Assembly: GCF_000190315.1 (NCBI RefSeq) | Contig: NC_015151.1 | Location: 124,001 to 188,000, forward strand | DNA: 64,000 nucleotides | Origin: Vulcanisaeta moutnovskia 768-28 | GTDB lineage: Archaea; Thermoproteota; Thermoprotei; Thermoproteales; Thermocladiaceae | Direction of reading: 5' to 3' | Shown: positions 44,935-58,670 of the stretch, piece by piece | Layout: each line of letters begins with the position of its first letter | How positions within the stretch are numbered: position 1 is the stretch's first letter | Translations under genes and position numbers: made by a program | The notes under the pieces: generated by a model | The model's database searches: none | The model's input: the letters and a program-made list of their open reading frames with translations, nothing else | Told to the model about the DNA's origin: nothing

Positions 44935-45072
44935 AGGCATTTTAGTAACAATGGCTCATTAGGGTATTCATCATTAATTGGTGGATTACATGATTGATTG
45001 CAATGGTATCACGTGGTGGTTTCACGGTTGGTTGCACGGAGAGTTTTTATGCAGGAAACTGGTTGGTGCTTC

Positions 45073-45900
45073 GTGATTGGTATGGGTAAGACCTGGATTT
45101 GGGTTGTGGTTGGTGTTGTGATTGGCTTAGTGGTTAGTTTGGGTTTGGTCTATGCGGTGATGCCTTATTATTATTACTACTATAATTACTATTATGGTAA
45201 TTATCCCAGCACCTCACCTATCGGCCCTGGTGTGGGTAATTACTATGTTGGTTATGCCTATAGTACATACTCAATAAGTAAGGTCATTAAGGAGATTATG
45301 GAAGTACCGAGTTATGCTCACGTTTACCCTGGTAACAATACCATAGTATTTACCAGTAAGGATGTTAATCTATTGGTTGTGGCTATGATGGGTGATGATG
45401 CGGAGAAAATGTTTAATGCAACATCTCCACCCTACGTGCATGGTGATGTCTTCGTTATTTACGGACTAATAAACCCAACACTAGTTATACCTGCTGGTGC
45501 TGTTGTTCATGTCACTTTTATAAATCTTGATGATGATATGTACCACAATTTCGTAGTAACCAGGGTACCACCGCCATACCCATACTACGTGATGCACTAT
45601 ATAGGCATGAGTGGTGGTATGGGTCCGCAGATGATGCTTTATATGGAGTGGTTGCCGCCGGCCAATTACAATGCTGGTTATGCCTATGGTTATGAATATG
45701 CATTCACCATCACTGAACCAGGCACGTACTGGTACCTATGCACATATCCAGGCCATGCTGAGGAGGGCATGTATGGTGAAATAATTATAATGGGTAATAG
45801 CGTGAGCACTACTGCACCGGCACCTACATACCCAGTTACTCAATATCCAGGTTCGTATTACGGACCTAGTTGGATGGGTGGTATGATGGGGTGGTGGTAA
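45073..45900 (+). CDS. Membrane-anchored cupredoxin, sulfocyanin-like
   Basis: A protein of about 275 residues with one N-terminal membrane helix (WIWVVVGVVIGLVVSLGL), a Tyr-rich linker and an external blue-copper domain. The type 1 copper ligands are visible: His in MYHNFVV, then Cys, His and Met in YLCTYPGHAEEGMYG, the sulfocyanin-like order. It probably carries electrons to a terminal oxidase. GTG 45073 fits the TATA element TTTTTATG (about 45043-45050) better than ATG 45082. The next gene starts within its stop codon. Confidence 0.85.
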   Translation: MIGMGKTWIWVVVGVVIGLVVSLGLVYAVMPYYYYYYNYYYGNYPSTSPIGPGVGNYYVGYAYSTYSISKVIKEIMEVPSYAHVYPGNNTIVFTSKDVNLLVVAMMGDDAEKMFNATSPPYVHGDVFVIYGLINPTLVIPAGAVVHVTFINLDDDMYHNFVVTRVPPPYPYYVMHYIGMSGGMGPQMMLYMEWLPPANYNAGYAYGYEYAFTITEPGTYWYLCTYPGHAEEGMYGEIIIMGNSVSTTAPAPTYPVTQYPGSYYGPSWMGGMMGWW

Positions 45901-46109
45901 TGCCCTGTCCATGCATGTGGGGTTGGGGTTTTGGTCCGTGGTTCAGCTTTGGATGGTTTGGCTGGATAATTGGCGCCATAATAGCTCTCTTGTTCCTGAT
46001 ACTCATAGTACTTGTGATAGTTTGGGTTGTTAGAAGCTTAATGAGGATCTCGGGTGATTATCATCAGCACCAGGGCATGAGCATGGTTCGTGCAGTAGCT
46101 AATCAATAA
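45900..46109 (+). CDS. Small CPC/His membrane protein, 69 aa
   Basis: Its ATG shares a base with the stop of the cupredoxin gene (TAATG), so the two are translationally coupled. The protein starts MPCPCMWGWGFGPW, has one long hydrophobic helix (about 23-50) and ends with a hydrophilic tail containing YHQHQGMSM. The CxC pair and the HxH...M tail are metal-ligand-like. Role unknown; copper delivery or assembly of the cupredoxin is an inference from coupling. Confidence 0.7.
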   Translation: MPCPCMWGWGFGPWFSFGWFGWIIGAIIALLFLILIVLVIVWVVRSLMRISGDYHQHQGMSMVRAVANQ

Positions 46110-46117
46110 GACTTTAC

Positions 46118-46666
46118 CTAGTTGGTTTTATTAAAATCTTTCAATCTTACTATATTTCTACCCTTAACCTTAACAACCTCGAGCAGGCCCTTCTCCTCAA
46201 GCCTATGAACGATCCTCCATGCCTGAACCTTTGATAGCCCTAAATCTCTCATTATTTGGTATTGAAAGATCTCACCGCCTGACCTAATCACGTACTCAAG
46301 GACCTCACGCTCAGCCTTAGGCAGTAATTTTAGAACTCTACCATAGTAATCATCAGAATTGCCGGTCATGGAACCACTTTCCACAGCATCTCTCTGCCCT
46401 ATCTCATAACTTAATCCCTGGGAAAACCCATCGGGTTTTATTAGTATGATTGGCGTTATTATCATCATCACACCCACCGTTAATAATGCCACAGGTAGGA
46501 ATAACGGGTAGTACATCATCATTCCACACATCATACCCATGCAGTGGTAATAGGCCATATAATTAACCATGATAATTGCGCCATAAAGCAGGTACGCGCT
46601 TACCCCCAATATTATAATACCTATTATAATCAATACATTACGCAATAAACTACGTTCATTACTCAT
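46118..46666 (-). CDS. Membrane-bound winged-helix regulator with Met/Cys-rich loop
   Basis: Two N-terminal membrane helices (about 8-32 and 53-76) enclose a short outer loop (about 33-54) with eight Met, two Cys and one His (for example HCMGMMCGMMM). A cytoplasmic winged helix follows (LLPKAEREVLEYVIRSGGEI; QYQIMRDLGLSKVQAWRIVH). The layout is a one-component membrane sensor. The loop composition and the convergent cupredoxin genes suggest copper as the signal. The TATA-like ATTTATTAAATAA (46689-46700) is 28 bases before the ATG. Confidence 0.72.
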   Translation of the reverse strand: MSNERSLLRNVLIIIGIIILGVSAYLLYGAIIMVNYMAYYHCMGMMCGMMMYYPLFLPVALLTVGVMMIITPIILIKPDGFSQGLSYEIGQRDAVESGSMTGNSDDYYGRVLKLLPKAEREVLEYVIRSGGEIFQYQIMRDLGLSKVQAWRIVHRLEEKGLLEVVKVKGRNIVRLKDFNKTN

Positions 46667-46711
46667 TATTAATCATTTAACGTCGTTATTTAATAAATCC
46701 TTCTAGGCAAT

Positions 46712-57247: not shown

Positions 57248-58119
57248 TGTTCGGAGTCCTCGGCCATGCTGCCATTGACATAATAAGAAGAGGATCAATA
57301 AGCAAAAAATCACCAGGTGGCGCACCAACATACTGCTCATTCTACCTAAAGCAGATAGGCATTGATTTAATACCAATTACATTAGTTGGTAGGGATTTCA
57401 ATGAATACATAATTGATTATAAAATAAGGAATATACCCATAGAGAGGATTTGTGTCTTGGATAGTTGTAATAGTACATCGTATGAAATAACTTATTATGA
57501 TGATACAAGGAGATTAAGGTTATTGTCGAAATGTAGGGACTTTTCTATAGATGACCTTCATGACTTACCTGATGTAGTTGTGGTAAATCCAATAGCTAGA
57601 GAGATAAGTCTAGATCTTCTTCAGTACATAAGAAGCCAGGTTGGCTTTGTTGGTGTTGACTTGCAGGGATTCTCCAGGGTATTTGACAAAAATAATTATG
57701 TGAATTCGATGATTAATGTTGATGATATAGTAAGAATAATTGAAAGTGCTGACCTAGTTAAGGTCAGTATTGATGATGCGCCAATGAACGTATTTGACAA
57801 CATAGTTAATAAGTATCCAAGCAAGGTTATAGTACTGACAATGGGCGCTCATGGATCAGTACTATTGCGTAATAATCATAAATTCCGTATCTTAACAAAC
57901 GGCATTGTTAATGTTAAGGATCCTACCGGGGCGGGTGATGTATTAACGTGCACATTGACTTACATGCTCAGTAGAGGTGAGGATCTTGAGTGGTCATTCA
58001 TTTTCTCAAATGCAGTTGCCGTTGCCAAAACAATGGGTGAGGGACCGTATGGTCTCATAAGTAGTGAGATCGTTAGGAAAATTGCTAGCGAATTATCAAT
58101 GCGACTTATTAGAACCTAG
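57247..58119 (+). CDS. PfkB-family carbohydrate/nucleoside kinase
   Basis: A 290-residue ribokinase-fold enzyme. The catalytic, anion-hole motif VKDPTGAGDVLTC is intact, and the N-terminal glycine pair (SPGGAPTYCSFYLKQIG) matches PfkB signature 1. Substrate not determined: ribose, nucleoside or a keto sugar are possible. It is translationally coupled to the unknown 241-aa protein and overlaps the convergent regulator gene by 24 bases. Confidence 0.85.
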   Translation: MFGVLGHAAIDIIRRGSISKKSPGGAPTYCSFYLKQIGIDLIPITLVGRDFNEYIIDYKIRNIPIERICVLDSCNSTSYEITYYDDTRRLRLLSKCRDFSIDDLHDLPDVVVVNPIAREISLDLLQYIRSQVGFVGVDLQGFSRVFDKNNYVNSMINVDDIVRIIESADLVKVSIDDAPMNVFDNIVNKYPSKVIVLTMGAHGSVLLRNNHKFRILTNGIVNVKDPTGAGDVLTCTLTYMLSRGEDLEWSFIFSNAVAVAKTMGEGPYGLISSEIVRKIASELSMRLIRT

Positions 58120-58572
58120 TTTACTGATTATGTCGCTTACATAATCAATATCCGTTACCTGTACATAACTGAACCTACCAACTCTTCTAACCGTTATTAA
58201 CCCCTTATCATGTAGTCTTCTGATTATTCTAGAAACAGTGCTCTTGGGTAATTCCAATTCCCTGGCTATTTCGGCTTGATAGGCATCACCGCCCTTATTT
58301 AATAGAAAGGATAAAACCTTTACTTCATCTTCATTTATATTATTAATTAACTCGGTGATACCCACAGTGCCCTGCTTATTCCTATTTACTGTATCAAATT
58401 CTAACTGACTTATCGTAGAGGATGATTTATTAATCCTAGAATTGTCCGATTCCTTATCTATTGGCTTTTTTGATTCCTTGAATACTTGATAGATGAGTGA
58501 TGATAGTACTGCAAATTGAATGAGAGCTATGGAAATAATAAGGTAATAATTGTATATGCTCATTAATGTCAT
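58096..58572 (-). CDS. Membrane-anchored winged-helix regulator
   Basis: One hydrophobic N-terminal helix (YLIISIALIQFAVLSSLIY), a charged flexible linker, then a winged helix: EDEVKVLSFLLNKGGDAY, QAEIARELELPKSTVSRIIR and LHDKGLITVRRVGR. A membrane-tethered regulator of the same general design as the one at 46118, with one helix and no metal-like loop. The start is uncertain among ATGs 58593, 58581 and 58572. The TATA box at about 58598-58608 favours 58572. Confidence 0.7.
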   Translation of the reverse strand: MTLMSIYNYYLIISIALIQFAVLSSLIYQVFKESKKPIDKESDNSRINKSSSTISQLEFDTVNRNKQGTVGITELINNINEDEVKVLSFLLNKGGDAYQAEIARELELPKSTVSRIIRRLHDKGLITVRRVGRFSYVQVTDIDYVSDIISKLGSNKSH

Positions 58573-58670
58573 ACAAAGCATAAGAAATATCATACTTATT
58601 TATAAATTACTCTGGTTCCTAATAAGCCATATAAATAAAATAGAAAATAATAACATCGATTAAGGGAGAG

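Follow-up and report, generated by a model that had tools for sequence, protein, structure and literature searches.

The regulator locus and its genes

The DNA analysed here, referred to as the window, is a stretch of 64,000 nucleotides from a complete archaeal genome of 2,298,983 bp, that of Vulcanisaeta moutnovskia 768-28. Between positions 45082 and 46666, three genes are found, all of them present as open reading frames (ORFs): an anchored cupredoxin, a 69-aa protein with a single transmembrane (TM) helix and a convergent regulator of 182 aa. The cupredoxin gene (45082..45900, plus strand) encodes a rusticyanin-like protein of 272 aa with an N-terminal TM anchor. An in-frame GTG lies upstream at 45073, but the ATG at 45082 is more likely to be the start codon because this GTG is absent from several relatives in which the ATG is retained. 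The TAA stop codon (45898-45900) overlaps the ATG of the 69-aa gene (45900..46109, plus strand) in a TAATG sequence. The regulator gene (46118..46666, minus strand) converges on the latter with a gap of 8 nt, and its product is predicted to comprise, in order, TM1, an outer Met/Cys/His loop, TM2, a linker and a winged helix (DUF7343/MarR_2). The three genes are thus as an earlier note had described them, including the TAATG coupling, the MPCPCMW and YHQHQGMSM ends of the 69-aa protein and the loop with its eight Met, two Cys and one His.

Upstream of the cupredoxin operon, two direct copies of a candidate operator half-site (45018..45043, plus strand), namely GGTTTCAC at 45018-45025 and GGTTGCAC at 45030-45037, abut a TATA element, TTTTTA (45044..45049, plus strand), whose position is kept in relatives. 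Past the TATA box, an inverted half-site-like element, GGAAAC (45054..45059, plus strand), is kept in most relatives. The 44.9-45.1 kb region, which the note had put forward as the target of the winged helix, does contain this candidate box (45018-45059). The regulator gene has its own TATA-like element, TTTATTAA (46690..46697, minus strand), located by alignment of regulator upstream regions. No tRNA was found upstream of the cupredoxin operon in a search at bacterial settings.

The transmembrane regulator

Residues 33-54 of the regulator (MVNYMAYYHCMGMMCGMMMYYP; codons 46505..46570, minus strand) include eight Met, two Cys and one His among 22 positions. When all 16,351 segments of 22 residues from the 62 ORFs of the 64 kb were compared, this loop was the top Met+Cys+His stretch with 11 of 22, the runner-up having 7. 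In the AlphaFold model, two helices (2-41 and 47-75) flank the Met/Cys turn, and a disordered linker leads to a winged helix spanning 104-175 (pLDDT about 85-90); the MarR_2/DUF7343 domain scores above its cut-off. The loop should lie outside the cell membrane because the DNA-binding domain must be cytoplasmic and comes after TM2. Its Met/Cys/His character is kept in orthologs though the sequence changes; the Cys and His residues are not strictly conserved, the Cys pair being missing in a Caldivirga genome (G012) and in Thermocladium.

By sequence, the regulator only recovers weak winged-helix matches from the PDB. Foldseek retrieves generic MarR/ArsR-type winged helices, the best being AntR, an antimony-responsive repressor (E 6.5e-4), a match used here solely as support for the fold. 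The membrane-bound one-component regulator of an unfamiliar type that had been suggested is therefore upheld by prediction, with two TM helices and a winged helix in a single chain. In one genome (G010), the regulator gene is interrupted by a transposase-like ORF (L099:10229-12263), with the Met/Cys loop still readable and the cupredoxin operon intact.

Conservation of the linkage

A profile search of 81 Thermoprotei genomes, in which 80 bits or more defined a strong ortholog, identified such regulators in 26 of them; these genomes are related to each other, so that this count and those that follow are not independent. Sixteen belong to the Vulcanisaeta/Caldivirga/Thermocladium family, eight to the Thermoproteaceae (Pyrobaculum, Thermoproteus and relatives) and two are Thermofilaceae-related. 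Distant matches in G045, G064 and G078 were set aside as they have neither a Met/Cys loop nor copper neighbours. In the family of the window genome, the cupredoxin adjoins the regulator in 15 of the 16 genomes, the sixteenth being cut by a contig end. Conserved linkage in relatives, on which the earlier proposal was to stand or fall, is thus observed. The small protein is recognisable between the two in most of these genomes and is much diverged in the two Thermocladium genomes.

The Thermoproteaceae display another arrangement. There, the cupredoxin is not found at the regulator locus; the regulator converges on a homolog of the small protein and is divergent from a Met-rich PepSY-type gene. 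Its further neighbours are a YHS protein, the copper-export gene CopA, which encodes a Cu-ATPase, and, often, DUF411 together with a membrane protein of the thioredoxin fold. At the chosen threshold, each genome yields a single CopA match, which is 0.8-4.3 kb away from the regulator in seven of the eight genomes and about 23 kb away in the eighth. In Pyrobaculum oguniense, a single cluster holds the regulator, the small protein, PepSY, DUF411 and CopA. With these CopA, DUF411, PepSY and YHS neighbours and a common promoter box, the copper context is stronger than could be known from the window.

The canonical archaeal copper regulator, which combines a helix-turn-helix with a TRASH domain (HTH+TRASH), was not detected in any Thermoproteaceae genome searched. 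Five of them (G028, G033, G037, G040 and G041) carry CopA with neither kind of regulator; thus, replacement by the membrane regulator is not universal, and the regulator is not essential there. In G025, PepSY is fused to the small-protein start (L194:4463-4822), the regulator is gone and CopA retains the box, an arrangement that looks like a recent deletion that took out the regulator.

The small membrane protein

The 69-aa protein starts with MPCPCMW, is rich in Trp and Gly, has one TM helix and carries YHQHQGMSM near its C end. In both archaeal families, its homologs are linked to the regulator gene; those of the Thermoproteaceae have a signal-peptide-like start, CPMCGGWW, a TM helix and a short His tail. 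Other relatives share the CPxC/Trp-rich N end and the TM helix but bear a SHOCT or SHOCT-like tail in place of the short His/Met tail. Thus, L113 (genome G069) has a SHOCT domain (E 8e-8), and L186 (G070; 2660-2965) combines CPCGWGWG, a single TM helix and a SHOCT-like tail and directly adjoins CopA, whereas a Pfam search found no SHOCT domain (PF09851) in the 69-aa protein. Since the relatives include SHOCT-tailed proteins, one of them beside CopA, these sequence likenesses point to a role in copper handling. The more specific role of assembly factor is a guess.

The G070 protein hints that small membrane proteins linked to copper form a broader family. In Thermoproteaceae, a convergent overlap of about 70-100 nt between the genes of the small protein and the regulator (L109:8351-8449, L110:8974-9045 and L111:8530-8631) makes their 3' ends mutually antisense.

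Identity and role of the cupredoxin

The cupredoxin had been called sulfocyanin-like, which is not supported at the family level. It matches the rusticyanin model TIGR03095 at 7e-31 (107.3 bits, below the equivalog cut-off of 146.7) and the sulfocyanin model TIGR03094 at only 2e-4 (20.8 bits, below the cut-off of 168.4), and its best PDB match is a rusticyanin (1e-16). SoxE (PF06525) is above its cut-off, with 27.4 bits against 21, as is Pfam Copper-bind; a sulfocyanin identity was nevertheless rejected because the rusticyanin model scores far better. The copper ligands H155, C220, H225 and M230, numbered from the ATG at 45082, form the type 1 set H, C, H, M and are invariant in 12 relatives. 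This site is common to rusticyanin, sulfocyanin and the window protein, the latter differing from both by scores under the two equivalog cut-offs, its N-terminal TM anchor, its linkage to a regulator and the lack of an adjacent respiratory complex. The AlphaFold model of the cupredoxin was discarded as too poor (pLDDT 48).

Electron transfer was the second half of the original proposal. According to this explanation, the cupredoxin is a respiratory carrier that follows copper supply, as cyanobacterial plastocyanin does, and the small protein aids its assembly. The type 1 site is indeed complete, the core is extremely conserved and rusticyanin, the nearest solved relative, is an electron carrier. 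However, no haem-copper oxidase subunit I (COX1) was detected at E 1e-20 in the complete window genome, nor was one found in several relatives carrying the same locus, and the oxidases that are found are bd quinol oxidases, two subunits of which pass E 1e-20 in the window genome. Diverged cupredoxins do adjoin COX2, COX1, Rieske and cytochrome b genes in Caldivirga, Thermocladium and the more distant G047, as annotated by eye together with the COX1 search; by sequence, these oxidase-linked proteins are paralogs, and the cupredoxin of the window type is the regulator-linked one. Homologs of the regulator and of the small protein elsewhere accompany copper export genes. The description as an electron-transfer module is thus unsupported, because no haem-copper oxidase was found and the oxidase-linked cupredoxins are different paralogs. 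The role of donor to such an oxidase was rejected for V. moutnovskia, a respiratory role in general is judged unlikely, and a copper-homeostasis operon is the likelier description.

In Thermocladium, a further small gene separates that of the cupredoxin from that of the small membrane protein (L105:13439-13612 and L106:5509-5700); its product is rich in His and Met (MCMMHGMNHASDDHEHDD... in L105) and is possibly another copper binder of the operon.

A promoter box common to copper genes

Ten aligned cupredoxin promoters display GGTTWCAC or a near variant, six nucleotides and a T-rich TATA element (mostly TTTTTA), followed in most by GGAAAC or GAAACC. The core arrangement, GTTWCAC, about 6 nt and TATA, is common to these promoters and to those of copper genes in other lineages. 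In Thermoproteaceae, the succession GTTTCAC, about 6 nt and TATATA is found between the divergent regulator and PepSY genes as well as upstream of the small protein and of DUF411. A clear box before CopA is limited to G038 (GTTTCGCATCAGGTATATA) and G025. The same arrangement is also found in two Thermofilaceae-related loci.

A matrix built from the ten cupredoxin promoters gave a mean of 9.9 for 22 foreign copper-gene promoters, a target list made after the box had been seen, versus 1.2 for 168 other promoters of the same loci (Mann-Whitney p=5e-13; 17 of the 22 exceed the background 95th percentile). In the reverse direction, a matrix from copper promoters of other lineages, including Thermoproteaceae, whose sites were picked by eye, ranked the window cupredoxin promoter first in the 64 kb (16.9, the next being 12.8). 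In the loci of nine relatives, it placed the cupredoxin promoter first in eight and third in the ninth. The 18-bp dyad GTTTCA-N6-TGAAAC, with at most one mismatch, occurs nine times in nine regulator loci, always in copper intergenic regions, versus 0.10 expected, the dyad having been derived from these very loci. Across the window genome, GGTTNCACNGAGRGTTTTTA has one exact match, at 45030-45049, and the next best has three mismatches. A wider regulon in that genome was sought with the loose pattern GTTNCACN{5,8}TWTWTA and rejected, as it yields six matches versus five for the reversed control. Of its three plus-strand matches, those that were read, one is in the cupredoxin promoter, another coincides with the beginning of a divergent ORF and the last is internal to an ORF; the other three matches are on the minus strand.

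The simplest account is that the membrane regulator binds this box, because it is the sole regulator gene seen in the immediate neighbourhood in both lineages, it carries a metal-type loop and its neighbours are copper genes. Alternatively, an unlinked regulator recognises the box and the targets of the membrane protein lie elsewhere. The tie between box and regulator rests on sequence, and alignment of upstream regions reveals no GTTWCAC box in the regulator's own promoter in the Vulcanisaeta/Caldivirga/Thermocladium family. Against an unlinked regulator, besides the sole-gene neighbourhood, the box does lie within the regulator's own divergent promoter region in Thermoproteaceae and Thermofilaceae-related genomes. 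Moreover, among the CopA promoters of the five Thermoproteaceae that have no regulator, four score at background level and in the fifth the box is missing from its usual position. Binding by an unlinked regulator is thus considered quite improbable.

The membrane regulator is not proposed to govern CopA in the window genome. There, CopA (C1:389207) is far from the regulator locus and has a divergent HTH+TRASH-type (CopT-like) gene of its own, so called from a CDYCGGPI motif read by eye, and the GTTWCAC box was not found at that locus; this candidate role was rejected on these three grounds.

Proposed mechanism

Taken together, the copper-type loop, the DNA-binding end, the copper-gene neighbours and the common promoter signal suggest that the membrane regulator probably represents a type of copper sensor that had not been described before. 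The reading regarded as reasonably probable is that this transmembrane one-component protein senses copper and controls the operon of the cupredoxin and the small protein; in it, we infer copper as the ligand, binding to the box, the direction of control and the buffering role. The regulator would sense copper, probably Cu(I), outside the cytoplasm, its two N-terminal TM helices presenting the Met/Cys/His turn on the outer face. Metal bound at the turn would shift the helix hairpin, probably within a dimer, and thereby alter how the winged helix engages the GTTWCAC half-sites, which directly precede the BRE/TATA of target promoters. Such a position of the boxes is compatible with activation and repression alike. 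In the window genome, the target would be the cupredoxin/small-protein operon, through the boxes at 45018-45043.

The anchored rusticyanin-like protein and the CPxC/Trp-rich small protein may then buffer extracytoplasmic copper or hand it on, instead of serving a haem-copper oxidase. As an external copper buffer or carrier, they would have a role comparable to that of CopI, a cupredoxin-like copper-tolerance protein (PMC13308877). The analogy with the window cupredoxin lies in an extracytoplasmic cupredoxin in a copper-handling context; CopI is bacterial and has a His-rich N-terminal region and internal His/Met metal regions, and the two are compared here by description. Cytoplasmic copper would be handled separately by CopA and its own HTH+TRASH regulator. 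In Pyrobaculum and Thermoproteus, the same regulator would act on a fuller copper regulon, with PepSY, DUF411, the small protein and, clearly in one case, CopA. A more far-reaching version is possible but held with rather less than even confidence. It posits a new class of membrane, kinase-free, one-component sensors that read Cu(I) through a Met/Cys/His hairpin and replace CopR/CopT at the copper-export locus of Thermoproteaceae, with the CPxC/Trp-rich small protein loading or unloading the sensor.

Met/Cys-rich sites are able to respond to oxidants. The loop might thus sense oxidation, or another soft metal such as silver, instead of copper, since its Met/Cys/His composition suits oxidants, Ag(I) and Cu(I) alike, and a protoglobin, with its possible gas or redox link, is encoded upstream of the cupredoxin in several Vulcanisaeta genomes; the protoglobin is nevertheless missing at the window locus and the neighbours in two archaeal families are copper genes (CopA, YHS, DUF411 and cupredoxin), which makes this alternative highly doubtful. 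Five Vulcanisaeta genomes carry the protoglobin gene (PF11563) immediately before that of the cupredoxin (L098:7602-8189, L099:8477-9064 and L100:7963-8550, plus G002 in L118 and G003 in L121).

Relation to known regulators

Transmembrane transcription regulators (TTRs) carry a DNA-binding domain and a predicted TM region in one chain (PMC10269533), and archaeal membrane regulators include ArnR and ArnR1 of Sulfolobus (PMC6396743). Both elements are found in the regulator (MarR_2/DUF7343; AlphaFold), which by prediction fits the TTR definition and, like TTRs, would act from the membrane. ArnR, which controls archaella, places the HTH first, followed by a HAMP domain, a sensor and two C-terminal TM helices (PMC6396743), whereas the window regulator has N-terminal TM helices, a C-terminal winged helix, a short Met/Cys/His loop, no HAMP match and copper genes nearby.

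CopR/CopT (PMC7830388) resemble the regulator in adjoining genes for CopA and copper-binding proteins. However, they are soluble, with an Lrp-type HTH and a C-terminal TRASH domain, whereas the window regulator has TM helices and, in a Pfam search, no TRASH domain. The bacterial CusRS/CopRS systems (PMC7763554) read extracytoplasmic copper across the membrane, as is proposed here, but consist of a kinase and a response regulator, where the window protein would unite loop and winged helix in one chain. Among titles and abstracts of open-licence articles, none was recognised as describing a transmembrane one-component regulator that senses copper, or copper regulation in Thermoproteales.

With archaeal CopR/CopT-type regulators being soluble and the cited bacterial periplasmic sensors two-part, a single-chain membrane sensor would, if true, represent a minimal design. 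This reading would help to explain those Thermoproteaceae in which CopR/CopT went undetected and hints at what a rusticyanin-like protein might do in an archaeon where no haem-copper oxidase is detected. It also provides a defined DNA box together with predicted targets and small proteins amenable to in vitro work. Elsewhere in the window, a 165-aa ORF (58096-58593, minus strand) whose N-terminal end is hydrophobic carries a related winged helix but no Met/Cys loop, and is possibly a further membrane-bound regulator.
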